Assembly (NCBI RefSeq): GCF_900108095.1
Contig: NZ_FNWL01000002.1
Coordinates: 1,082,691 to 1,146,690, forward strand
Direction: 5' to 3'
Length of the DNA: 64,000 nucleotides
Source: Natronorubrum sediminis
Lineage (GTDB): Archaea > Halobacteriota > Halobacteria > Halobacteriales > Natrialbaceae
Below, piece after piece: positions 42,336 to 57,765 of this stretch. Numbering within the stretch: position 1 is the first letter of the stretch; every line of letters starts with the position of its first letter. The notes below the pieces were generated by a model. The model did no database searches. It saw nothing but the letters and a program-made list of their open reading frames with translations, and was not told the origin of the DNA. Made by a program: the position numbers and the translations under genes.

Positions 42336-42503
42336 TGTCGAAAGTACCGTGGGGCGGCGGGTTAACGCACGCTAAATCGGTAAGGTTGGCCGTTTGTTGG
42401 ATCGTAAACCGGTTCGTCGATTTTGTGTCGGCTCGGACGATCAGACGAACCCGATTCGAATTCGAGTGAACACACTCAAGACGGCCGCTCACGACCTTCG
42501 TAT

Positions 42504-43232
42504 ATGACTCTCGTCGAGGCACTACACGCCGAGGGGAACACGACGTGTGTCGTCGGGGCTGGAGGAAAGAAGTCGACGCTCTACGCACTCGCCGATCGAC
42601 TCGAGCGAGCGATCGTCACTGCGACGGTTCGCATTCCGCCGTTCGAAGACCACGTCAGCGAAGTTCGGGTTGCCGAACGGCCACTGGAGGCAATGAATTC
42701 GAACCCGGCGTGGCCGATCGGACTCGTTCGAGCGCAGGAACGTTCCGATCGGTATCGCGGCTACGAACCCGCAGTGATCGACGAACTCGCCGCCGAGATA
42801 GACGACGACGTGAGCGTCGTCGTCAAGGCCGACGGGGCACGAACGAGATGGTTCAAGGCACCCGCGGACGACGAGCCACAGCTCCCGGCGACGGCCGATG
42901 TCGTCGTTCCGATCGCGAGCGCGAAAATCGTTGGCGAGTCCCTGGACGACGAACACGTTCACCGACCCGAGCGAGTCGAGAGGGTGACGGGACTCGAGCG
43001 AGGCGAGGAAATTTCGACGACGGACGTCGCGACCGTCCTCTCGAGCGATCGAGGCGGGTTCTGTGACGTTCCCGATGGAGCGACGGTGATTCCGGTGATC
43101 AACATGGTCGACGATTCGGCACTCGAGGACACTGCACGGGAGATTGCTGGCGAGGTACACGAGCGACGGGACGTGTCCCAGGTTGTGTTGACGTGTCTCC
43201 TCGAAGAAGAACCCGTCGTAGCCATCGTCTGA
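42504..43232 (+). CDS. yqeC: YqeC-like putative molybdenum hydroxylase accessory protein
   Basis: The 242-residue protein has an N-terminal P-loop-like segment VVGAGGKKSTLYALA, then VVVKADGARTRWFKAP and GGFCDVPDGATVIPVINMVDD. These are characteristic of the YqeC family. In bacteria that family is genetically linked to selenium-dependent molybdenum hydroxylases, with unknown biochemistry. Here it stands beside a membrane protein gene and a CxxC protein; no hydroxylase or selenium gene is near. The ATG at 42504 yields the conserved start. Confidence 0.8.
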   Translation: MTLVEALHAEGNTTCVVGAGGKKSTLYALADRLERAIVTATVRIPPFEDHVSEVRVAERPLEAMNSNPAWPIGLVRAQERSDRYRGYEPAVIDELAAEIDDDVSVVVKADGARTRWFKAPADDEPQLPATADVVVPIASAKIVGESLDDEHVHRPERVERVTGLERGEEISTTDVATVLSSDRGGFCDVPDGATVIPVINMVDDSALEDTAREIAGEVHERRDVSQVVLTCLLEEEPVVAIV

Positions 43233-44019: not shown

Positions 44020-46158
44020 ATGCGAGCAATGAACAAGGGTGCGTTTGTGTGTTCCTGTGCTGGAACCTGTGATATCGACCTCGAGGAGGCGCGCGAACAG
44101 ATCGAGGACGTCGAGGTGGCGGCGAGTTCGCGCTTGCTCTGTCAGGACAAACTCGACGCGTTCGAGACGGTGATCGACGAGTACGAACTCGACGAGATGA
44201 CCGTCACGTGCCCGGAAGCGAAAGCCCAGGAGAAGATCACGGCGGCAGCCGAGAATCAAGGCCTCTACCCCGAATCCGTCCAGTTCGTCGATCAGCGTGA
44301 AGGGGCTGGCTGGGTGCACGACGAACAGACCGCGACGGCCAAAACGGCACGCCTCGTGAACGCGGCGCAGGCCGGCAGCCAGACGGAGTCGCTGCCGCGC
44401 TCGAGCATCCACCGAGCGGAGTACGACGTCGTCGTCGTGGGCGACCCGGATGCGGCCGCGGCGATCGCTGACTCCGCGGACGTGACCTTGCTCGCGAACG
44501 GCAAAGAGCTAGCCGGCACCGACGCGGACCTCGAGAACGTCGACGTAGAGCGGGGGCGCGTCGTCGACGTCGACGGCACGTACAGTGAGTTCGAGATCAC
44601 CGTCCGTGCTCGAGTGACGGACGACTGTATCTCCTGTATGAAGTGCGTCCACGAGGGGCCGGACGGAATGGTGACGCGGTACCCAGTCGACATCGATCCG
44701 GATGCACCGGTGGGCGAGTGGGTGAACGTTTGTCCGACGGACGCCATCGAGATGGGCGGCGTCGAGCGGACGTTCGAGTGCGACCAGGTGATCTATCCCG
44801 GCGGCGACGACGGCACCATCGGTGGGCAACGGGGCTTTCATACCACAGTCGACGCGGCGACGATCGACGAGGTCGAACGCTTACTCGGCGGGTTCGAAGT
44901 GCGGGACTTCCTCGACCTCGAGATGGACGTCTGTGCGTCGGGAACCGCCGGCGAGATGGGCTGTAACGAGTGTGTCGAGGCCTGTCCACACGGTGCAGTC
45001 GAGCGCGCGGCGATCGACGAGGTCGAGTTCCACCTCGATAGCTGCCAGAACTGCGGTGCCTGTACCAGCGCCTGCCCGACCGGGGCGACCAGCCTCGACG
45101 AACCGAGCAACGAGCGGATCGCCCGCGAGGTCGAAGCGCTGCTCTCTTCGGACGACGACGGCGGCTTCGTCAGCGGTCTCCTCGGGGGCTCGAGTGCGAG
45201 CATCGAGACACCGATCGTCGCGTTCGTCTGCTCGGAGCAAGCCGGCGACGCACTGCGTGAGTACGGCCGGATGGCGGCGGCGGGACGCGCAGATATCGAG
45301 TACCCGCCGATCCTCCCCGTCTCGGTCAACTGCGCCGACACGGTCGGCGAGGCGCACGTGCTCCACGCGCTGGCCGCCGGCGCGGACGGCGTGGCCATCG
45401 TCGGCTGTGGCGGCAGTTGTCTGCACTCCGGCCCGGACCCGAAAGCCGAACTCGTCGAGCGAGTAAACCAGGCCACGACGGATCTCGGCCTGGGCGAGCG
45501 CGTCTCGTTCTTCGCCCCCGATCCGACCGACCCGGACGCCTTCGTCGAGGAGGTCTCGGAGTTCGCCGAGGTCGAACTCGAGGCGTCGCCGGTTCCTGCC
45601 GGCGAGCACGAGGCGACGGGCCAGATCGACGCGGAGCGACCGAATCCCGACTTCGACAACCACGGCTGGGCGCTCGAGAGCGTCCGCGCGATCCTCGAGC
45701 ACGCGGAGCCACAGCAAGCGGTCATCCGCGGGCTGAAGGACTTCGGCATCGTCGAGGTCGGCGACGGCTGTACGCTCACGCCGACGTGTACGAACTACTG
45801 TCCGACCGACGCGCTTCGGCGGACGGACGACGGCCTCGAGTTCAACCACGAGCGCTGTGTCAACTGTGAACTCTGCGAGGAGGTCTGCGTCGAAGGCGTT
45901 ATCGAGGTCGAAGAGGGCCTCGACCTCTCGCTCCTGCCCGAAAATAGGGACGACGAGGTGGATCCCGCGTGGACTGAGGTCCACGAGGGGACCATGCAGG
46001 CGTGTGCGGGCTGTGGTCGGGAGTTCACGAGCGAGGCGACCGTCGCCGCGATCGAAGATCGAATCGGCGAGCGCGTCGCCGAACTCTCGCCGACGGCCGA
46101 CAGGAGCATTATCGAGTACTGTCCGGAGTGTCGAGCGAACTTGCTCCACGAGCGCTAA
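44020..46158 (+). CDS. HdrA/MvhD-like multi-cluster iron-sulfur protein without FAD motif
   Basis: The 712-residue protein starts like HdrA (GAFVCSCAGTCDID and REGAGWVHDE). Where the FAD fold GxGxxG is expected it has VVVVGDPDAAAA (137-148). Ferredoxin domains follow (C203/206/209/238, C315/318/322, C342/345/348/352). An MvhD/FlpD-type domain (398-515) has C404, C438, C463 and C467 for a 2Fe-2S centre. More clusters lie near 584-623, with a CxxC/CxxC pair at the end. Such proteins pass electrons between formate or hydrogen enzymes and disulfide or other acceptors. A downstream ATG at 44029 is equally possible. Confidence 0.8.
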   Translation: MRAMNKGAFVCSCAGTCDIDLEEAREQIEDVEVAASSRLLCQDKLDAFETVIDEYELDEMTVTCPEAKAQEKITAAAENQGLYPESVQFVDQREGAGWVHDEQTATAKTARLVNAAQAGSQTESLPRSSIHRAEYDVVVVGDPDAAAAIADSADVTLLANGKELAGTDADLENVDVERGRVVDVDGTYSEFEITVRARVTDDCISCMKCVHEGPDGMVTRYPVDIDPDAPVGEWVNVCPTDAIEMGGVERTFECDQVIYPGGDDGTIGGQRGFHTTVDAATIDEVERLLGGFEVRDFLDLEMDVCASGTAGEMGCNECVEACPHGAVERAAIDEVEFHLDSCQNCGACTSACPTGATSLDEPSNERIAREVEALLSSDDDGGFVSGLLGGSSASIETPIVAFVCSEQAGDALREYGRMAAAGRADIEYPPILPVSVNCADTVGEAHVLHALAAGADGVAIVGCGGSCLHSGPDPKAELVERVNQATTDLGLGERVSFFAPDPTDPDAFVEEVSEFAEVELEASPVPAGEHEATGQIDAERPNPDFDNHGWALESVRAILEHAEPQQAVIRGLKDFGIVEVGDGCTLTPTCTNYCPTDALRRTDDGLEFNHERCVNCELCEEVCVEGVIEVEEGLDLSLLPENRDDEVDPAWTEVHEGTMQACAGCGREFTSEATVAAIEDRIGERVAELSPTADRSIIEYCPECRANLLHER

Positions 46159-49396: not shown

Positions 49397-50323
49397 TTAT
49401 TCGGCGTGTTCGATCTCCCAGTCAGCGTTCTCGGCGGCCGTCTCGAGCGGGACGAACTCCCAGTCGGCGGCCTCCGCGATCCACTCGTCGCCGGCCGTGC
49501 CGACGAGGACCATTCGCTCCGCGTAGAACATCGACTCGGGGGTGATATCGACGAGTCGCTGATCCGGGCCGTTCTCCGAGCCGCCGAAGAAGTCCAGTTC
49601 GATAGTGTGATCGCGCTGGAACTTCCGGATCGCCGGGGTAGAGACCTTGCCGACGATGCCGATCCAGTCGGACCAACTGCGGGCGTCGGCGATACAAAAG
49701 CGCGGGTCCTCGAGTCGGTTGATCGCCTCGTAGGTCATCGCGAGCGTCATGTCGTCCGCCTCGGTCTCCTCGCCGTGATTCGTCGTTCGCTGTGAGGACT
49801 CACTCGAGTCCGTCGCCGTCGGCTCGTCCGCGTTCGCACTCGAGGATGTACTACTCGAGGAGGAGGGGGAGCCACCGCCGGACCCACCTTTGGATTCTGG
49901 AACGCCGACTGGTCCAGACGGCCCGCCGGGGACTTTCGGCGTCCTGGGAGCTGCGGACTCGTCGTCGCCCGAATCGTCAGCGTCGACAGCAGAATCGGAC
50001 CCGTCGGCGTCGACGGCCGAATCCGAATCGTCGGGATCGTGAACGTCCGCGCTCGCTTCGGCGCTTGCTGGTGAATCGCCACTCGCCACCCCGACTTCGT
50101 CGCTGGCTGGGATCTCGTCACCGTCCGGCGCTTTCGGTACCTCGCTCGAGTCCCCATCGCCAGCGTCGGTCGCCGACGACTCGGCGCTGGTCCAGCGTGG
50201 CTCCGGTTCGTCCTCCGGGTCGCCTTCGCCACGCCAGAGCCAGTCGCCGTAGTTGGCGTCGCTTTCTTGGTCGTCTGCCGAGTCGTCGACTGTCATCTCG
50301 TCGAGGTCGATGCTGTCGGTCAT
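49397..50323 (-). CDS. acidic haloarchaeal protein with conserved C-terminal domain, AOR partner
   Basis: The 308-residue protein has a long disordered Asp/Ser/Pro-rich N-terminal half. It is followed by a folded domain of about 110 residues starting at DDMTLAMTYEA and containing DARSWSDWIGIVG and ERMVLVGTAGDEW. A similar domain is found in other haloarchaeal proteins of unknown role. The start overlaps the stop of the AOR-like gene (ATGA), so the two are translationally coupled and the product is a likely partner or maturation factor of that enzyme. Confidence 0.75.
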   Translation of the reverse strand: MTDSIDLDEMTVDDSADDQESDANYGDWLWRGEGDPEDEPEPRWTSAESSATDAGDGDSSEVPKAPDGDEIPASDEVGVASGDSPASAEASADVHDPDDSDSAVDADGSDSAVDADDSGDDESAAPRTPKVPGGPSGPVGVPESKGGSGGGSPSSSSSTSSSANADEPTATDSSESSQRTTNHGEETEADDMTLAMTYEAINRLEDPRFCIADARSWSDWIGIVGKVSTPAIRKFQRDHTIELDFFGGSENGPDQRLVDITPESMFYAERMVLVGTAGDEWIAEAADWEFVPLETAAENADWEIEHAE

Positions 50324-52119
50324 TGTCGAGTACCTCCGTCTTGGGGTTGTGAATCTGCCGCGCTGGGAATCGGCGTCGCCTCGTCGGGAACGTCCGCAAG
50401 GCCCAGTCTGCGAAGTAAATCTCGCGTCGGGCGACCCTGGTGGTCCCACTCGCGCTGTGCGTAGTAGTGATCGAGTAGCGCGTCGAACGACGGGCGGTCG
50501 ACGGCCGAGTCCGTACTCGAGTCGTCCGCGAACGGTTCCGTCAATGGCGACGGGAGTTCGTCGTCCCCTCGCGTGAAGCCCTCGCGGACGTTGAACAGTC
50601 GGACAAGCGTCCAGACGCGTTCACCGACCTGCGTGAGCTCCTCTGGCTCGAGGTCGTACCCAACGGCCTCGAGCCACTCCGCGCCGTCGTCGACGCGCAA
50701 CACGTCCTCGAGGAAGTCGTCCGCGATCAGACTCCAGAGGAGCGCCCGGTGGTTTTGCTCGGCGACGACTGCGGTTGCACGGTCTCGGACGCTTCGTTGG
50801 GAACCGGAGACCGGTTCGATTTCGACCGGGCGGGCGCGTCGGTGACAGCCGCCGCGGTCGCTCGTCGCGTACGCGAGCGCCATCGTCTCCGCGCTGCGCG
50901 GGTCGTACGAAGAGAGTTCCATCCCTTTCACGGTCGGGATCAAGTCGTCGCCGCCGAATCGCTCCACCGCACCGTCGACACCTTCCGCGAGGGCGTCACC
51001 GAGTGGAGTCGAGCGATGGGCGATCTCCTCGATGAGTTCGCGGGCGGCGTGCTCGTCGCCGAAGGAGAGGTCGCGTTCGATTAGCCCCTCCTCGCTGGCA
51101 CGGACCGCCCACGCGACCGCGTTGCCTGCGGTGATCACGTCGAGGGCGAGATGATCGCAGATCGCGCCGAGGGTCGCGACGGCGTCGAAATCGTCGATTC
51201 CGAGCCCCGCGCCGAGGACGATCGGTGTCGCCCCGCGGGGGACGCTCTCGCCTTCCTCGCTGTCGACGCGGAAGCCGCCCGGCACGGCGTCGTCCGGCCG
51301 CTCGCGCCCGGTCGATGCCTCGCGTGCTCGTTCGATACCGATGGCGTCCGCTCCCTCGAAGCTCCCCTCCTGCCAGCCTCGAGTCGGGAGCACGCCCACT
51401 TCGTTGGCGAAGTCGACCGTCTCGAGCGTGTCGCTCGCCGCGAGCCACTGTCCGGCGTCGCTCTCGGCGAACGCGTCGTCGTATTGGTTTCGCAGCGCGT
51501 CTAAGCCGTCGGGCGCGTCGTCGTGGGCGACCACGGCTTTCAGGTTCTTCGAGCCCATAACGGTGCCCGCGCCGCCACGGCCCGCGTGGTGGTCGCCCCC
51601 GTCAGATGCGATCGTTGCGTACTGAACGCCCTGTTCTCCCGCGGGTCCGATGCACGCGAGCGCACCGTCCGGAAACTGCGCGTCCGTTTCAGCGGCGTCG
51701 AGTCCCCACACGTCCGCTGCGGGTTCGAGCGTCGCGTCGCCGTCGGCGACCGATAAGACGACTGGCTCGTCGGCCTCGCCGGTGACGAGAATTCCGAGGT
51801 GGTTCTCGAGCGACCCGGCGAGACGGCCCGGGAACGTGCCGCCGCCGTAGGAGTCCAGAAAGGCCCCCGTCAGCGGCGATTTCGTGATCGCCGCGTACCG
51901 CTGTTCGCCCGGCGTGAATCCGGTCAGCGGGCCGAGCATGAACAACAAGACGTTCTCCGGACCGGCTGGATCGGTCCCCGCCTCGAGTTCCTCGTAGAGG
52001 TATCGCGCACCGATTCCTTTGCCCCCGACGTACTCCTCGAGCCATCGCTCGGGAATCGCGTCGCTGCTCACGCGTGGTGCCGAGAGATCGACTCGCAGGA
52101 TTCTATCTGGCCGGGGCAT
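50320..52119 (-). CDS. aldehyde ferredoxin oxidoreductase homologue lacking the Fe4S4 cysteines
   Basis: The 599-residue protein has the family fold: EQRYAAITKSPLTG, HHAGRGGAGTVMGSKNLKA, the pterin-contact D-x-x-x-L-D at 322-327, and an MELSSYDPRS region with RGGCH (H426). The usual C-x2-C-x3-C segment is replaced by DDAVPGGFRV (about 276-285), and the fourth ligand region D-x-x-G-L-C reads NHRALLW. Only three cysteines occur in the whole protein. A tungstopterin site may persist without its electron-relay cluster. The ATG at 52119 is chosen over a GTG one codon upstream. Confidence 0.85.
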   Translation of the reverse strand: MPRPDRILRVDLSAPRVSSDAIPERWLEEYVGGKGIGARYLYEELEAGTDPAGPENVLLFMLGPLTGFTPGEQRYAAITKSPLTGAFLDSYGGGTFPGRLAGSLENHLGILVTGEADEPVVLSVADGDATLEPAADVWGLDAAETDAQFPDGALACIGPAGEQGVQYATIASDGGDHHAGRGGAGTVMGSKNLKAVVAHDDAPDGLDALRNQYDDAFAESDAGQWLAASDTLETVDFANEVGVLPTRGWQEGSFEGADAIGIERAREASTGRERPDDAVPGGFRVDSEEGESVPRGATPIVLGAGLGIDDFDAVATLGAICDHLALDVITAGNAVAWAVRASEEGLIERDLSFGDEHAARELIEEIAHRSTPLGDALAEGVDGAVERFGGDDLIPTVKGMELSSYDPRSAETMALAYATSDRGGCHRRARPVEIEPVSGSQRSVRDRATAVVAEQNHRALLWSLIADDFLEDVLRVDDGAEWLEAVGYDLEPEELTQVGERVWTLVRLFNVREGFTRGDDELPSPLTEPFADDSSTDSAVDRPSFDALLDHYYAQREWDHQGRPTRDLLRRLGLADVPDEATPIPSAADSQPQDGGTRQ

Positions 52120-52305: not shown

Positions 52306-55302
52306 ATGTCACGGGCATCACTAGACCTCGATCGGCGAGGCTTCCTTAAAGCCGGCGTCGGTGGAAGCCTTGCAGCGGCGGTCGGGGGACGAACCCTGTT
52401 GCAGCGAGACAGTGAAGACGGTGAACCGCTCGACCCAGACGCAGCGGACGAACTGGTGAAGACGGTCTGTACGCACTGTTCGGTCGGCTGTGGTGTACAC
52501 ATGGCCGTCGAAGACGACGCCGTCATCGGACAGGAAACCTGGGACGACAATCCGGTCAATCAGGGCGGTCTCTGTTCGAAAGGGGCGTCACTAACCCAGT
52601 CCGTCAACTCCGAACAGCGCCTGAAGGAGCCGCTGAAACTCGAGGACGGCGAGTGGGTGCAGATGGATTGGGACGAGATTCTGCCGGAGATTACCGAACG
52701 CCTCAACGACATTCGAGAGGACGTCGGTCCCCACGGCACGATGTGGGTCGGCTCCGCGAAACATTCGAACGAAGCGGCGTACCTCATCCGAAAGCTCTCG
52801 GCGCTCTACGGCACGAACAACATCGACCATCAGGCGCGAATCTGTCACTCGACGACCGTCGAGGGCATCGCGAACACCTGGGGCGTCGGTGCGATGACGA
52901 ACAACTCGAACGATATGGCGAACGTCGATGTCAACCTGATCATCGGCCACAATCCCCTCGAGAGCCACCCCGTCGCCTGGCAGTACTTCCAGGACGCACA
53001 GGAAAACGGCGGGAAACACATCGTCGCCGAGCCACGATACACGAAGACGGCGGCGGCCTCGGACGACTACTTCCACTTCCGTTCGGGAACCGACGTCGCG
53101 TTCATCTACGGTCTCATCTACCACATCGTCAACAATCTCGAGGCACACGACGAGGAGTTCATCGAGAGTCGCGTCATGGTCGAGACGTGGGAAGAGTTCC
53201 GCGACGACGTGTTGCCGGAGTACGACCTCGAGACGGTCTCCGACATCTGTGGAACGCCAGTCTCGGACCTCGAGGAACTCGCGGAGGAACTCGCCGACGC
53301 CGACGTGAGTTGCGTCGAGTGGGCGATGGGTGGCACCCAGCACAACAACGCGACGGGCAACGTTCGAGCGTACGCGATGTTGAACCTCGCACTGGGCCAC
53401 TCCGCACAATCCGCGGGTGGCACGCCGATTTTCCGCGGCCACGACAACGTACAGGGTGCGACCGACCTCGGCGTCGACGCCGGGAACACGCCCGGGTACT
53501 ACGGACTCGACCAAGGGGCGTGGGAGCACTGGGCTAACGTCTGGGACCAGACGGAGAGCACCTCGGGCGACCTCACGTACGACGAACTGGCAGATCGGTA
53601 CCACGATACGGAGCTGATGGAGAAAAACGGCTTCACCGTCGCCCGCTGGTACGAAGGCGTCCTCGACGACGAGTGGGAAATTTACCAGCCCGATCCGTTG
53701 CAGGCAGCCGTCTTCTGGGGCCACGGACTCGCCTCCCTGACGGAGTACAAGAAGGTCAGAGAAGCCGTCAACGAACTCGACTTCATCGTCAACATCGACG
53801 TCTTCCCGAACCAGGTCGCCGAACTCGCCGATAGCGACACGGACGTCTACATGCTGCCGGCCGCGACGAACATCGAGGAAGCCGGCAGCGTCGTGAACAC
53901 GGGACGACAACTCCAGTGGCGCTCGAAAGCGATCGAGCCCCGACACAACTCCAAAGCCGACTGGGAGTTGCTCTGTGAGTTCGCCGACCACCTCGGTTTC
54001 GGCGAACACTTCGACTACGACGAGGTCGAAGACGTTACCCGCGAGATCAACTTCGGCGTCCGTTCGGTCGGCTACATCGGCCAGACGCCCGAACGTCTCA
54101 AGGCCCACCAACAGAATGCAGACCTCTTCGATCCGGAAGACCTGCGGGCCGATTTCGACGAACTCGACGTCGACGAAGACGACGTCGACGGCGTCCAGGA
54201 CGGCGACGTCTACGGACTGCCGTGGCCGTGTTGGCACGACGAACACCCCGGAACACCGATTCTCTACGACTCCTCGCTACACCCCTCCGACGGTGGGATG
54301 GACTTCCGATCCAACTGGTGGGACGACGCCGTAGACGAAGACGACCCGGAGATCCCGCCGGAAGACCACCTCCGCGATCCGTTCACGCCGGAGTGGTCCG
54401 ATCAGGAACTCGAGGGCGTCCCACAGTACCCGCTTTTCACCACGGTACTGCCGGACCCCGAGAATCCATCGGAAGCAACGATTCCGATCGAAGGCGCGTT
54501 CGACGAGGAGACGTCCGTCGCGGACGTCGCCCAACAACTCGACGAGGAAGGCTACGACGTCGACCTCGAGCGCTACGAGGAGTTCGACAACCCACAGCCC
54601 GACGCGCCGTGGGGTCGCGGTCGAGCCCGGATGAAAGCCTGGAACCTCACCGACGAGATTCCGGTCCACCGCGAACCCGCGGTCACGCCACGACCGGATC
54701 TCGTCGACGAGTACCCGTGTAACGACCGAACCGAAGACCACTGGCGCGTCGAACTCGACAACGCACAGGTTCAACAAGACAACATCGACGCCGTCGACGA
54801 CCACGACCTCGTCCTCACGTCCGGACGACAGGTCGAGCACAAGGGTGCCGGGGCAGTCACCCGGAGCACGCAGGGAACCGCCTCGCGCGCGCCGATGATG
54901 TACCTCGAGATCCACCCGGAGGTCGCCGAGGAGCAACTCGACGGCGTCGAGGAGGGCGAGTGGATCGTCGTCGAGACGCCACACGCCGAGATGGTCGTGC
55001 AGGCGCGGCCAACCGAACGAGTCGCAACGGATCACGCCTTCGCGCCGTACCACTGGAGTGGGATCCTCGAGGGCGAGAAGATGACGGATCGGTTCGGCGG
55101 CGAGATGGAGGGACTCGAGCCGCTGGTGATCGGCGAGTCGATCAACGCTGGGACGGCCCCAGCGTACGATCGCGAGACCCAGATGCAAGAGTCGAAGGTG
55201 ACGCTGTGTAGCGTCCGACTGGCCGAGGACGACGAGGTTCCGGACCTCTCACAGCGCCAACTCGACTGGCAGGAACAGCGAATCAATCGACACAAGCGAT
55301 AG
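52306..55302 (+). CDS. formate dehydrogenase-like molybdopterin catalytic subunit, Tat-exported
   Basis: The 998-residue protein has a twin-arginine signal (DRRGFLKAGVGG, RR at 10-11). The 4Fe-4S site uses C55, C58, C62 and C90, and the active-site pair C180-H181 lies in DHQARICHS. In formate dehydrogenases this is Sec/Cys-His, so a Cys-ligated Mo or W enzyme is likely. Bis-MGD binding segments (IIGHNPLESHPVAW and AEPRYT) and a C-terminal beta domain follow. An acidic insert around 640-760 lengthens it. Formate oxidation outside the membrane is probable; another substrate is possible. Confidence 0.85.
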   Translation: MSRASLDLDRRGFLKAGVGGSLAAAVGGRTLLQRDSEDGEPLDPDAADELVKTVCTHCSVGCGVHMAVEDDAVIGQETWDDNPVNQGGLCSKGASLTQSVNSEQRLKEPLKLEDGEWVQMDWDEILPEITERLNDIREDVGPHGTMWVGSAKHSNEAAYLIRKLSALYGTNNIDHQARICHSTTVEGIANTWGVGAMTNNSNDMANVDVNLIIGHNPLESHPVAWQYFQDAQENGGKHIVAEPRYTKTAAASDDYFHFRSGTDVAFIYGLIYHIVNNLEAHDEEFIESRVMVETWEEFRDDVLPEYDLETVSDICGTPVSDLEELAEELADADVSCVEWAMGGTQHNNATGNVRAYAMLNLALGHSAQSAGGTPIFRGHDNVQGATDLGVDAGNTPGYYGLDQGAWEHWANVWDQTESTSGDLTYDELADRYHDTELMEKNGFTVARWYEGVLDDEWEIYQPDPLQAAVFWGHGLASLTEYKKVREAVNELDFIVNIDVFPNQVAELADSDTDVYMLPAATNIEEAGSVVNTGRQLQWRSKAIEPRHNSKADWELLCEFADHLGFGEHFDYDEVEDVTREINFGVRSVGYIGQTPERLKAHQQNADLFDPEDLRADFDELDVDEDDVDGVQDGDVYGLPWPCWHDEHPGTPILYDSSLHPSDGGMDFRSNWWDDAVDEDDPEIPPEDHLRDPFTPEWSDQELEGVPQYPLFTTVLPDPENPSEATIPIEGAFDEETSVADVAQQLDEEGYDVDLERYEEFDNPQPDAPWGRGRARMKAWNLTDEIPVHREPAVTPRPDLVDEYPCNDRTEDHWRVELDNAQVQQDNIDAVDDHDLVLTSGRQVEHKGAGAVTRSTQGTASRAPMMYLEIHPEVAEEQLDGVEEGEWIVVETPHAEMVVQARPTERVATDHAFAPYHWSGILEGEKMTDRFGGEMEGLEPLVIGESINAGTAPAYDRETQMQESKVTLCSVRLAEDDEVPDLSQRQLDWQEQRINRHKR

Positions 55303-55312
55303 GTGAACGAAA

Positions 55313-55915
55313 ATGAGCACACAAGATTCCAACGGTGGACCGGCACGAGTCATTCCCAACTGGGAGTCCTGTATCGACTGTGGGGCGTGTGAGGTCGCGT
55401 GTCAGCGGACGTGGGACCTCCCGCCAGAGTCAGATCGAATACAGGTCGTTGCCATCGAGCACGGGACGGACAACGAGACGAACAAGCCGATGCAGTGTTA
55501 CAACTGCGCGGAAGCGCCCTGTATCGACGTCTGTCCGACGGAGGCGCTTCACTACACGGACAACGGCAGCGTCCGCGTCAGCGGCGACAAGTGTATCGGC
55601 TGTCACTACTGTGGCGTCGGCTGTCCATTCGGCGCACCGCAGTTCCCCGACGGCGAGGTTCCAGAAGCACAGGAATCCGAACCGCTGGGGGCCCGCGGAA
55701 ACGGTCTGATGGACAAGTGTACGACCTGCGAACCGCGCCAGGAGAACGACCTCGAGCCGGCGTGTTCCTCCGAGTGTCCGACGGACGCCTTGCTGTTTGG
55801 CACGCCAGAGGAGCTCTCCGAAAAGCTCGACGAAGACGGCGTCTCGACGCCGTTCAACGAAGAGTCCGCACAGATCATCTTCGGCGATGACGCGGACGAG
55901 GTTATGGGGGACTAG
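55313..55915 (+). CDS. four-cluster ferredoxin-type electron transfer subunit
   Basis: The 200-residue protein has four cysteine groups for 4Fe-4S clusters: CIDCGACEVAC, CYNCAEAPC with CP, CIGCHYCGVGCPF, and CTTC with CSSEC. This is the DmsB/NrfC/FdhB type. It lacks its own signal peptide and would travel with the catalytic subunit by the Tat route. Spacing of 10 bp to the catalytic gene and 7 bp to the membrane gene shows one operon. A GGTGA-like ribosome site precedes the ATG. Confidence 0.92.
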   Translation: MSTQDSNGGPARVIPNWESCIDCGACEVACQRTWDLPPESDRIQVVAIEHGTDNETNKPMQCYNCAEAPCIDVCPTEALHYTDNGSVRVSGDKCIGCHYCGVGCPFGAPQFPDGEVPEAQESEPLGARGNGLMDKCTTCEPRQENDLEPACSSECPTDALLFGTPEELSEKLDEDGVSTPFNEESAQIIFGDDADEVMGD

Positions 55916-55922
55916 ATCACCG

Positions 55923-57044
55923 ATGCCAACTGAAGTCACGTACGGTCTACCGTACGACCAATGGAACTGGCGTATCGGCGTCTACATCGCCATGATCGGG
56001 ATCGCGGGCGGTGCCTACCTGACCGGGTACATTGCCGACTTGCTCGCCGAAAAACGCGACTCGAGACAGTACGGACAGGTCGCCAAGTTCGGCTACCTCG
56101 TCGGGTTGGGTGGGTTGGCCATCGGGCCGCCGGTCTTGCTTTCACACCTCGCGGCACCGTTCCGTGCCATGATGATCCCGCTGACGATGACGAATCTGGG
56201 CTCGTGGATGTCCATCGGCGCGTACATGCTGATGGGCTTCGGTCTGGGGACTTCGGTAATGTTCCTCTGGCTCGCGTTCGGGACGAACCGACCACACGCC
56301 CGAACGCTGGGCTCGAGTAACGAGGTTGCAGCCGACGGCGGCGAAGACGTCGCAGCCGACGGTGGCCCGGCCAAAGCCGCAACCAGCGACGAAACGGCTG
56401 GTGGCTTCCGCGGCGCTGCGAACAAGGTCGGCCTCATGAACCTCCTCGACAGTATCGCGGACTACACCCGTCCGTCCCGGCGAAACCGACTCGTCGTCGG
56501 TGCCCTCTTCGGGATCTTCGCGGCCGGCGTGTTGGTCTACTCCGCGATGGCCTACGGCTCCGGTTCGACCGAACGGGTCGCACTCTGGGACCCGACGTTC
56601 TTGCTCCCAGTGCAGATCCTCACCGGCCTCGGTGCCGGACTCACCGTCGCAGTCGGCCTCGCCGCGCTCGCGGAGCGTGACGTCAGTCGACCGATCCAGA
56701 ACTGTTCGCTCGGCGCAGCCGGCTTGCTCGCAGGCGGACTCGTCGCGGTTGCCGCGACGCTGTTCCTCTTGCCCGAGCAGATTCCGGCAGCCCAACCAGC
56801 AGTCGACAACCTGACGTCGGCCTACGCACTCGAGTTCGTCGGCATCGCGCTCGTCGGCGGCCTGATCGTCCCGATCGCGCTCTCGATCGCTGGGACACTC
56901 GGCGTACGTCGTGACGCGCTCTCTGACTCCGGTGCCGTCGGAGCCTACGTCGCCGCGGCCGCGCTGGTCGTCGCCGGCAAACTCGCGCTCGCGCTCAGCT
57001 ACCTCATGGCCGCCGAGTTCACGCCGATGCCACTCCCAGTATAG
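55923..57044 (+). CDS. NrfD-type membrane anchor subunit
   Basis: The 373-residue protein has about eight to nine hydrophobic helices with the NrfD-like IGVYIAMIGIAGGAYLTG near the start and a Gly/Asp-rich cytoplasmic loop around 130-165. It should anchor the formate dehydrogenase-like complex and hand electrons to menaquinone. No haem-ligand pattern of the FdnI cytochrome type is seen. The start at 55923 gives the expected polar N-terminus MPTEVTYGLP. Confidence 0.88.
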   Translation: MPTEVTYGLPYDQWNWRIGVYIAMIGIAGGAYLTGYIADLLAEKRDSRQYGQVAKFGYLVGLGGLAIGPPVLLSHLAAPFRAMMIPLTMTNLGSWMSIGAYMLMGFGLGTSVMFLWLAFGTNRPHARTLGSSNEVAADGGEDVAADGGPAKAATSDETAGGFRGAANKVGLMNLLDSIADYTRPSRRNRLVVGALFGIFAAGVLVYSAMAYGSGSTERVALWDPTFLLPVQILTGLGAGLTVAVGLAALAERDVSRPIQNCSLGAAGLLAGGLVAVAATLFLLPEQIPAAQPAVDNLTSAYALEFVGIALVGGLIVPIALSIAGTLGVRRDALSDSGAVGAYVAAAALVVAGKLALALSYLMAAEFTPMPLPV

Positions 57045-57096
57045 ACCGGTCGATTTCCGAACCAACTGATTTCCCTTCCGAAGACGATACCTACCG

Positions 57097-57765
57097 ATGA
57101 CACAGCCGAGCAACACGACTGGCGAACTCGCGGAACTCTACGCGTTCGTCTCGAGCGTACTCGCAGATCCGCCCGACGAGATCGCCGTCGAACGACTTTC
57201 GACAGAACAGTTTCCCGCAGAGGCCTCCCCGCAGTCACTCGAGAATGGGTTCCGACTGCTCCGCCAGTGGCAAGCCGACGTGGACGAGCCAAGCAAGATA
57301 GCCGACGAACTCAAACGAACACACACGAAGCTCTTCGTCGGTCCGCGACCCAGGCTCCAGATTTACGAGTCCTGGTACGCAGACGACTACCTCGGCCAGC
57401 CCCTCGCGGCCGTCAAGAGCTCCTACCGAGATCTGAACATCCACCCGACGGAGGACCTCAAGGAAGAAGCAGACCACGCCGCCGTCGAGTTAGCTGCCCT
57501 TCAGACGCTCGCTCGAGACGGCGACGACGAGCACCGACGCGCGTTCCTCATGGCCCACGGCTGGTGGCTGACGGACCTCGCGACGGATCTCCAGGAGATG
57601 GTCGACGACACGTTCTACGAGGCCATTGGCTGGCTCGTCGAGGGCATCGTCGACCTCGACTGTTACCTGCTCAGTCTCGATCCGAACGACCTCGAGCGCG
57701 GGTACGACGATAGTCCGTACACGCCGATCGAGCCGTCGTTCAAAGCGCCGTTCGAAGATCAGTAA
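57097..57765 (+). CDS. TorD/DmsD-family maturation chaperone
   Basis: The 222-residue, all-helical protein matches TorD-type chaperones with THTKLFVGPRPRL followed by YESWYADDYLG (around 80-105), and later LMAHGWWLTDLA. These bind the Tat signal of a molybdoenzyme and help cofactor insertion before export. Its place 52 bp after the NrfD gene makes the catalytic subunit at 52306 the likely client. No sulfurtransferase FdhD gene is in the window. Confidence 0.92.
   Translation: MTQPSNTTGELAELYAFVSSVLADPPDEIAVERLSTEQFPAEASPQSLENGFRLLRQWQADVDEPSKIADELKRTHTKLFVGPRPRLQIYESWYADDYLGQPLAAVKSSYRDLNIHPTEDLKEEADHAAVELAALQTLARDGDDEHRRAFLMAHGWWLTDLATDLQEMVDDTFYEAIGWLVEGIVDLDCYLLSLDPNDLERGYDDSPYTPIEPSFKAPFEDQ

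Follow-up and report, generated by a model that had tools for sequence, protein, structure and literature searches.

A haloarchaeal branch of the aldehyde ferredoxin oxidoreductase family without Fe4S4 ligands, its association with YqeC and formate dehydrogenase, and a possible role in cofactor maturation

The AOR-family gene and its surroundings

The window (the whole stretch of DNA that was analysed, 64,000 nucleotides from Natronorubrum sediminis) contains at 50320..52119 on the minus strand a gene of the aldehyde ferredoxin oxidoreductase (AOR) family, whose coding region specifies a protein of 599 aa followed by a stop codon, with a GTG one codon upstream as an alternative start. A Pfam scan of the protein returned only the two AOR domains, AFOR_N (3.1e-60, 203.8 bits) and AFOR_C (7.6e-94, 315.4 bits), both above the curated cut-off, and no FdhD-NarQ domain. 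The AOR fold is predicted to extend across the entire chain: the model, which was built from 35 sequences (pLDDT 78.0, pTM 0.83, with low confidence in the metal-site loops 229-273, parts of 290-306, 395-405 and 423-431), matched 9mqx_D (Z 39.7, 557 aligned residues, 2.9 Å) and 1aor_A (Z 38.0, 556 aligned residues, 2.8 Å) in a structure search. The Pfam AOR family has four members in the source genome, the window protein included, and the three paralogues (L085, L086 and L087) retain all four cluster cysteines in the alignment. The model of the canonical paralogue L087, for which 21 closely similar sequences served as input, reached a pLDDT of 43.5 and a pTM of 0.38.

The stop codon of the AOR-family gene overlaps (ATGA) with the start of a gene for a 308-aa DUF7124 protein (49397..50323, minus strand; Pfam PF23439); this copy of DUF7124, start-stop coupled to the AOR-family gene, has a long acidic N-terminal extension. 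A formate dehydrogenase (FDH) operon (52306-57765) runs divergently from the AOR-family gene on the plus strand. It encodes an FDH-type Mo/W-bisPGD catalytic subunit with a RICH motif (52306..55302; TIGR01591, 442 bits, below the cut-off of 666), a 4Fe-4S electron-transfer subunit (55313..55915; profile matches), an NrfD-like membrane protein of uncertain start (55797..57044; weak match to TIGR03148, 1.1e-5), and a TorD/NarJ-type chaperone (57097..57765; profile matches). On the other side, also on the plus strand, lie the genes for YqeC (42423..43229; TIGR03172, 161.9 bits, cut-off 73.05) and for an HdrA/FlpD-like multi-cluster iron-sulfur protein (44020..46158; profile matches). The latter has several 4Fe-4S motifs and stands beside FDH, of which it is a possible electron partner.

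Lost and retained residues

Residues are numbered according to Pyrococcus (Pfu) AOR, to which the window protein was aligned, unless its own numbering is given. The first search of haloarchaeal genomes yielded 68 relatives, two of which (L064 and L066) are broken in frame and were omitted from residue counts; the remaining 66, the window protein and further sets of five and two members make up the 74 clade sequences, and partial sequences occur among the clade loci (L036, L042 and L069). The comparison set of 26 comprises Pfu AOR, 15 other AORs from related genomes (including the three paralogues mentioned above), and 10 further relatives.

The first-pass annotation had stated that all four Fe4S4 cysteines are replaced in the window protein. 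This holds for the entire clade, in which none of the 74 members has a ligand cysteine at any of the four positions, while all four are present in 26/26 comparison proteins, so that a sequence error is not the cause. As annotated, the CxxCxxxC loop (Cys288/291/295) is replaced by DDAVPGGF (residues 276-283 of the window protein; 51271..51294, minus strand), and the segment aligned to Pfu 284-305 is devoid of cysteine throughout the clade. The fourth site had been placed at NHRALLW; it is situated just past this motif in SLIADDF, within the stretch WSLIADD (residues 462-468; 50716..50736, minus strand), where D467 takes the place of Cys494 (Asp in 73/74) and W462 that of the pterin-site residue Asp489 (Trp in 73/74).

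A second loss had been overlooked, and the earlier account was thus incomplete. The GPEYE motif with the catalytic Glu313 is replaced by VPRGA (residues 293-297; 51229..51243, minus strand), and the position of Glu313, which is Glu in all 26 comparison proteins, is occupied by Ala, Gly or Ser in 74/74 clade members. The two preceding residues of the motif are exchanged as well (Glu311 to Arg in 73/74, Tyr312 to Gly in 74/74), and the replacement residues R295, G296, W462 and D467 are fixed across the clade. The metal-site motif RGGCH (residues 422-426; 50842..50856, minus strand) is kept, as had been noted, with Cys447 and His448 present in every one of the 74 sequences, and so are Thr243 (74/74) and Tyr427 (73/74). 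Of the AOR active-site residues listed in PMC13328260, namely Thr243, Glu313, Tyr427 and His448, the clade has thus lost Glu313 and kept the other three.

The absence of both Glu313 and the cluster speaks against redox catalysis of the AOR type, and that the clade no longer performs it is much surer than the maturation role considered below. One of the three options in the annotation was a new electron path. It is quite unlikely that the protein still works in this way as a redox or other pterin-using enzyme, for example by oxidizing a substrate and handing the electrons directly to clusters in FDH or in the HdrA-like protein. The retention of Thr243, Tyr427 and His448 and the cluster-rich partners encoded nearby would fit such an enzyme; however, the catalytic glutamate is gone in all 74 members, the HdrA-like gene is near only 21/73 clade loci, and the strongest genomic tie is to YqeC, a cofactor-maturation gene. 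Of the other two options, the evidence favours a non-redox role for the pterin fold and not a cluster supplied by a partner.

The partner in question was the coupled downstream protein, and it is very unlikely to supply a cluster. DUF7124 was ruled out as a donor by its cysteine content (one in the window protein, 0-2 across the 14 copies counted) and because it adjoins only 22/75 clade loci. It is encoded in 194/194 genomes; at least two copies were found in 68/102 genomes with the clade versus 17/92 without it, so an extra copy is enriched with the clade, yet the family is general. A cluster assembled from displaced cysteines is likewise unlikely and was rejected on counts: the window protein has three cysteines in total, which had been correctly listed as C156, C321 and C425, and one clade member has just two; moreover, many AORs that do bear the Fe4S4 cluster have Cys at these positions too.

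Origin, age and selection

In a maximum-likelihood tree of 45 sequences, the 29 cysteine-free ones form a single branch with a support of 100/100, and their closest group is the cysteine-bearing pair L073 and L074. The median dN/dS is 0.20 (range 0.07-0.39; 141 pairs with more than 75% identity), indicating purifying selection. A cysteine-free clade under selection, which the first-pass annotation had proposed to look for, therefore exists. The fixed new residues together with this dN/dS look like altered function rather than decay. It is extremely improbable that the gene is a decaying pseudogene or a product of faulty sequencing, or that other cysteines or DUF7124 rebuild the cluster: two of the 68 loci (L064 and L066) are indeed broken in frame, but 74 other members exist, the dN/dS is 0.20, and the cysteines are too few in the proteins concerned (three in the window protein, two in one member, 0-2 in DUF7124).

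The cysteine-bearing sister (L073, L074 and L114-L117; 42-44% identity) has Tyr93, His182 and His183 in common with the clade according to the alignment, but differs from it by the presence of the four cysteines and Glu313; all ligands and Glu313 are kept in L114-L117 as well as in the outlier L108 from a genome outside the order (G392). The cluster-bearing L108 already has Tyr93 and Trp489 and is thus an intermediate for the pterin-site change. Taken together, the shared residues of the sister and Trp489 of L108 show that part of the pterin-site change preceded cluster loss. In a sample of 246 genomes of the phylum, no clade member was found among the six matches outside the order with E <=1e-90, all of which keep the four cysteines. 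The ligand loss is real and ancient, and it occurred in one step.

No gene for YqeC, FdhA or MobA was found around the cysteine-bearing sister in the 2/2 loci tested. The neighbours at the sister loci resemble genes of aldehyde or alcohol metabolism, as judged by eye from sequence starts.

Association with YqeC and formate dehydrogenase

Co-occurrence was analysed in 194 genomes of Halobacteriales, each at least 90% complete, of which 102 contain the cysteine-free AOR relative after two genomes with the sister only (G083 and G154) had been removed from 104. YqeC was present in 102/102 genomes with the clade versus 22/92 without it, and an FDH-alpha match at 1e-100 in 102/102 versus 54/92. In the 12 genera in which the clade is variable, YqeC was found in 40/40 genomes with the clade versus 13/38 without it, and none of 20,000 within-genus shuffles reached the observed nesting; therefore, genus-level relatedness is not the explanation of the tie. 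A strong FDH match (135 genomes when the limit is set at a rounded exponent of 200, and 137 with the curated cut-off) was present in 93 of the 102 clade genomes and lacking in 9. The tightest companion of the clade is thus YqeC.

The stricter nesting with YqeC (102/102) than with strong FDH matches (93/102), together with the adjacency of MobA in 16/75 loci, would be expected if the protein were a store or sensor of pterin, tungsten or molybdenum that is not specific for FDH. The chance of this is slim, however, as FDH genes are in the fetched flank of 41/75 loci and an FDH-alpha match occurs in all 102 genomes.

In the flanks retrieved for 75 clade loci there were genes for YqeC (42), an FDH-type catalytic subunit (41), DUF7124 (22) and MobA (16). 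At least one of YqeC, FdhA and MobA was found in the flank of 62/75 clade loci versus 1/13 canonical AOR loci, a comparison of unequal flank lengths (4-6 kb at the canonical control loci, 8 kb at most clade loci); without L106 and L107, which had been chosen because FDH was already seen beside the gene, the count is 60/73. In these two loci the genes form an array in the order YqeC, MobA, a protein without an assigned family, FdhA and AOR, with one extra ORF in between in L107, and the FdhA and AOR ORFs are only a few bases apart. Throughout the clade, however, gene order and orientation differ among loci, and the subtype of the linked FDH varies, with 77-81%, 42-46% or 30-34% identity to the FDH of the window. 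The RxCH motif, which we take to be the Cys/Sec-His pair of FDH, was intact in 8/8 linked FDHs examined.

The adjacency in L106 and L107, the FDH linkage in 41/75 loci and the replacement of Asp489 by Trp in 73/74 members could also mean that the protein is a structural or regulatory subunit of an FDH complex, in which the AOR fold persists as a scaffold without the ability to bind any pterin. This is unlikely. A fixed subunit would not be expected to show such variation in gene order, orientation and FDH subtype, Thr243, Tyr427 and His448 of the metal site remain (74, 73 and 74 of 74), and Trp489 is found also in the cluster-bearing L108.

On a larger scale, YqeC lies within 10 kb of the clade gene in 68/102 genomes, and in 23/102 neither YqeC nor FDH (among the matches listed) lies within 20 kb, FDH proximity being a lower bound since the distances rest on part of the FDH positions. 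Cassettes of YqeC and FdhA without a clade AOR also exist, and their FdhA is 81-85% identical to the linked FdhA.

Formate dehydrogenase maturation and FdhD

In other organisms, FdhD sulfurates bis-MGD and delivers it to FDH, according to the accounts in PMC6239281, PMC13197769 and PMC12140954. With the models TIGR00129 and PF02634, FdhD was found in 0/194 Halobacteriales genomes and in 8/14 control genomes; 156 of the 194 genomes have an FDH-alpha match at 1e-100. Haloarchaeal FDH is therefore matured by something else, or needs nothing dedicated.

To FDHs without YqeC and clade AOR, 12 loci were assigned; L152, which lacked a known FDH position, gave nothing, and the other 11 yielded FDHs with an intact RxCH motif in genomes in which YqeC, the clade AOR and FdhD were all not found. 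The clade protein is thus not required for every haloarchaeal FDH, and these FDHs weaken the notion that it is an essential replacement of FdhD. Deletion of yqeC alone is reported in PMC11448449 to have no phenotype in C. difficile.

PMC2276186 describes YqeC and SelD as a maturation system for selenium-dependent molybdenum hydroxylases, to which the present case is similar in that YqeC is the tightest companion of the clade. It differs in that SelD was above the cut-off in only 15/102 genomes with the clade AOR (17/194 overall), and in that the AOR-linked YqeC stands beside FDH genes and not beside SelD (positions judged by eye). A selenium role was rejected as not general on the basis of these SelD counts.

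Discussion

By sequence descent and predicted fold, the clade belongs to the AOR family. With tungsten oxidoreductases of this family (Pfu AOR, 1AOR; Haloferax WOR83, 9Q1T; and 9MQX) it shares the Pfam domains, the fold over the whole predicted chain (Z 38-40) and Thr243, Tyr427 and His448; it differs by the lack of the Fe4S4 ligands and of Glu313 and by the neighbouring genes for YqeC, FDH and MobA. The simple WOR class is characterized in PMC13328260 by a tungstopterin site and one [4Fe-4S] cluster; as the clade lacks this defining cluster, its members should not be classed with the WOR enzymes. FdhD and FdsC are presented in PMC6239281 as FDH-specific chaperones that bind sulfurated bis-MGD. 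A likeness to them is proposed only in so far as the clade protein would be an accessory linked to FDH genes, whereas a sequence relation was not found in the Pfam scan; the clade is not part of the FdhD family, though it may be FdhD-like in its work.

A fold that is built for two pterins but has lost its redox wiring, and that occurs only where YqeC occurs, is a natural candidate for a part in FDH maturation. The proposal, based on conservation and gene linkage, is that the clade protein is a non-redox accessory that handles a (bis-)pterin cofactor in FDH maturation together with YqeC, and with MobA where it is linked. The starting point would have been a cluster-bearing AOR in a halobacterial ancestor; on one branch the four cluster cysteines and Glu313 disappeared, but the fold was preserved, as was the greater part of the metal-site shell (Thr243, Tyr427, Cys447, His448 and the RGG loop). 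To judge from its conservation, this shell would still meet a metallopterin, and to judge from the linkage, the protein would act together with YqeC, either upstream of FDH or on FDH itself. More speculatively, it might hold the Mo/W-bis-pterin cofactor as the terminal sulfido ligand is put in place, or carry it to FdhA, a job that would overlap with that done elsewhere by FdhD.

It should be noted that several observations temper this proposal, namely the FDHs in genomes without the clade protein, the cassettes without the AOR, the 23/102 genomes without linkage, the unsettled function of YqeC, and the putative nature of pterin binding. The maturation role is therefore given not quite an even chance of being correct. 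Its most specific version, in which a dead tungsten AOR has come to serve as carrier or assembly platform for the bis-pterin, sulfurating the FDH cofactor and delivering it in concert with YqeC, and is thus a metallocofactor chaperone, is rather doubtful.

In the open-access full-text literature, judged from titles and the starts of abstracts (subscription papers and preprints lay outside this scope), no cluster-less AOR tied to FDH or YqeC was found. The clade breaks the rule that an AOR is a pair of metal-pterin and Fe4S4 cluster, as it is large, under selection and without both the cluster and the catalytic glutamate. For annotation this means that its members should not be counted as aldehyde oxidoreductases; public plasmid records label the clade protein after its AOR domain. 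Because the clade is tied to YqeC and FDH in genomes that gave no FdhD match, the role of YqeC and the source of the sulfido ligand of FDH become testable by halophile genetics. If the proposal is true, a redox enzyme was turned into a metallocofactor chaperone in haloarchaea.

Two further observations concern the gene neighbourhoods. A protein family of about 185-216 aa recurs in the YqeC-MobA-FdhA cassette, at 15/75 clade loci and at several loci without the AOR; copies are found at L106:6442-6996, L045:12303-12860 and L044:12488-13135, and the L044 copy has no Pfam match.

The second observation is that relatives of the gene are carried on plasmids. An exception to the FDH context is the Halostagnicola larsenii plasmid (L140), in which an aldo/keto reductase gene adjoins the AOR relative, a formaldehyde dehydrogenase gene is located farther away, and neither FDH nor YqeC is annotated within 9 kb. 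In Haloterrigena turkmenica (pHTUR02, L138) and Halobellus limi (L139), megaplasmids carry the AOR relative together with fdhF. They also bear genes for BCCT transporters and a Rid protein, with either glyA or a formate-tetrahydrofolate ligase gene, a context that suggests one-carbon (perhaps betaine) breakdown feeding formate.
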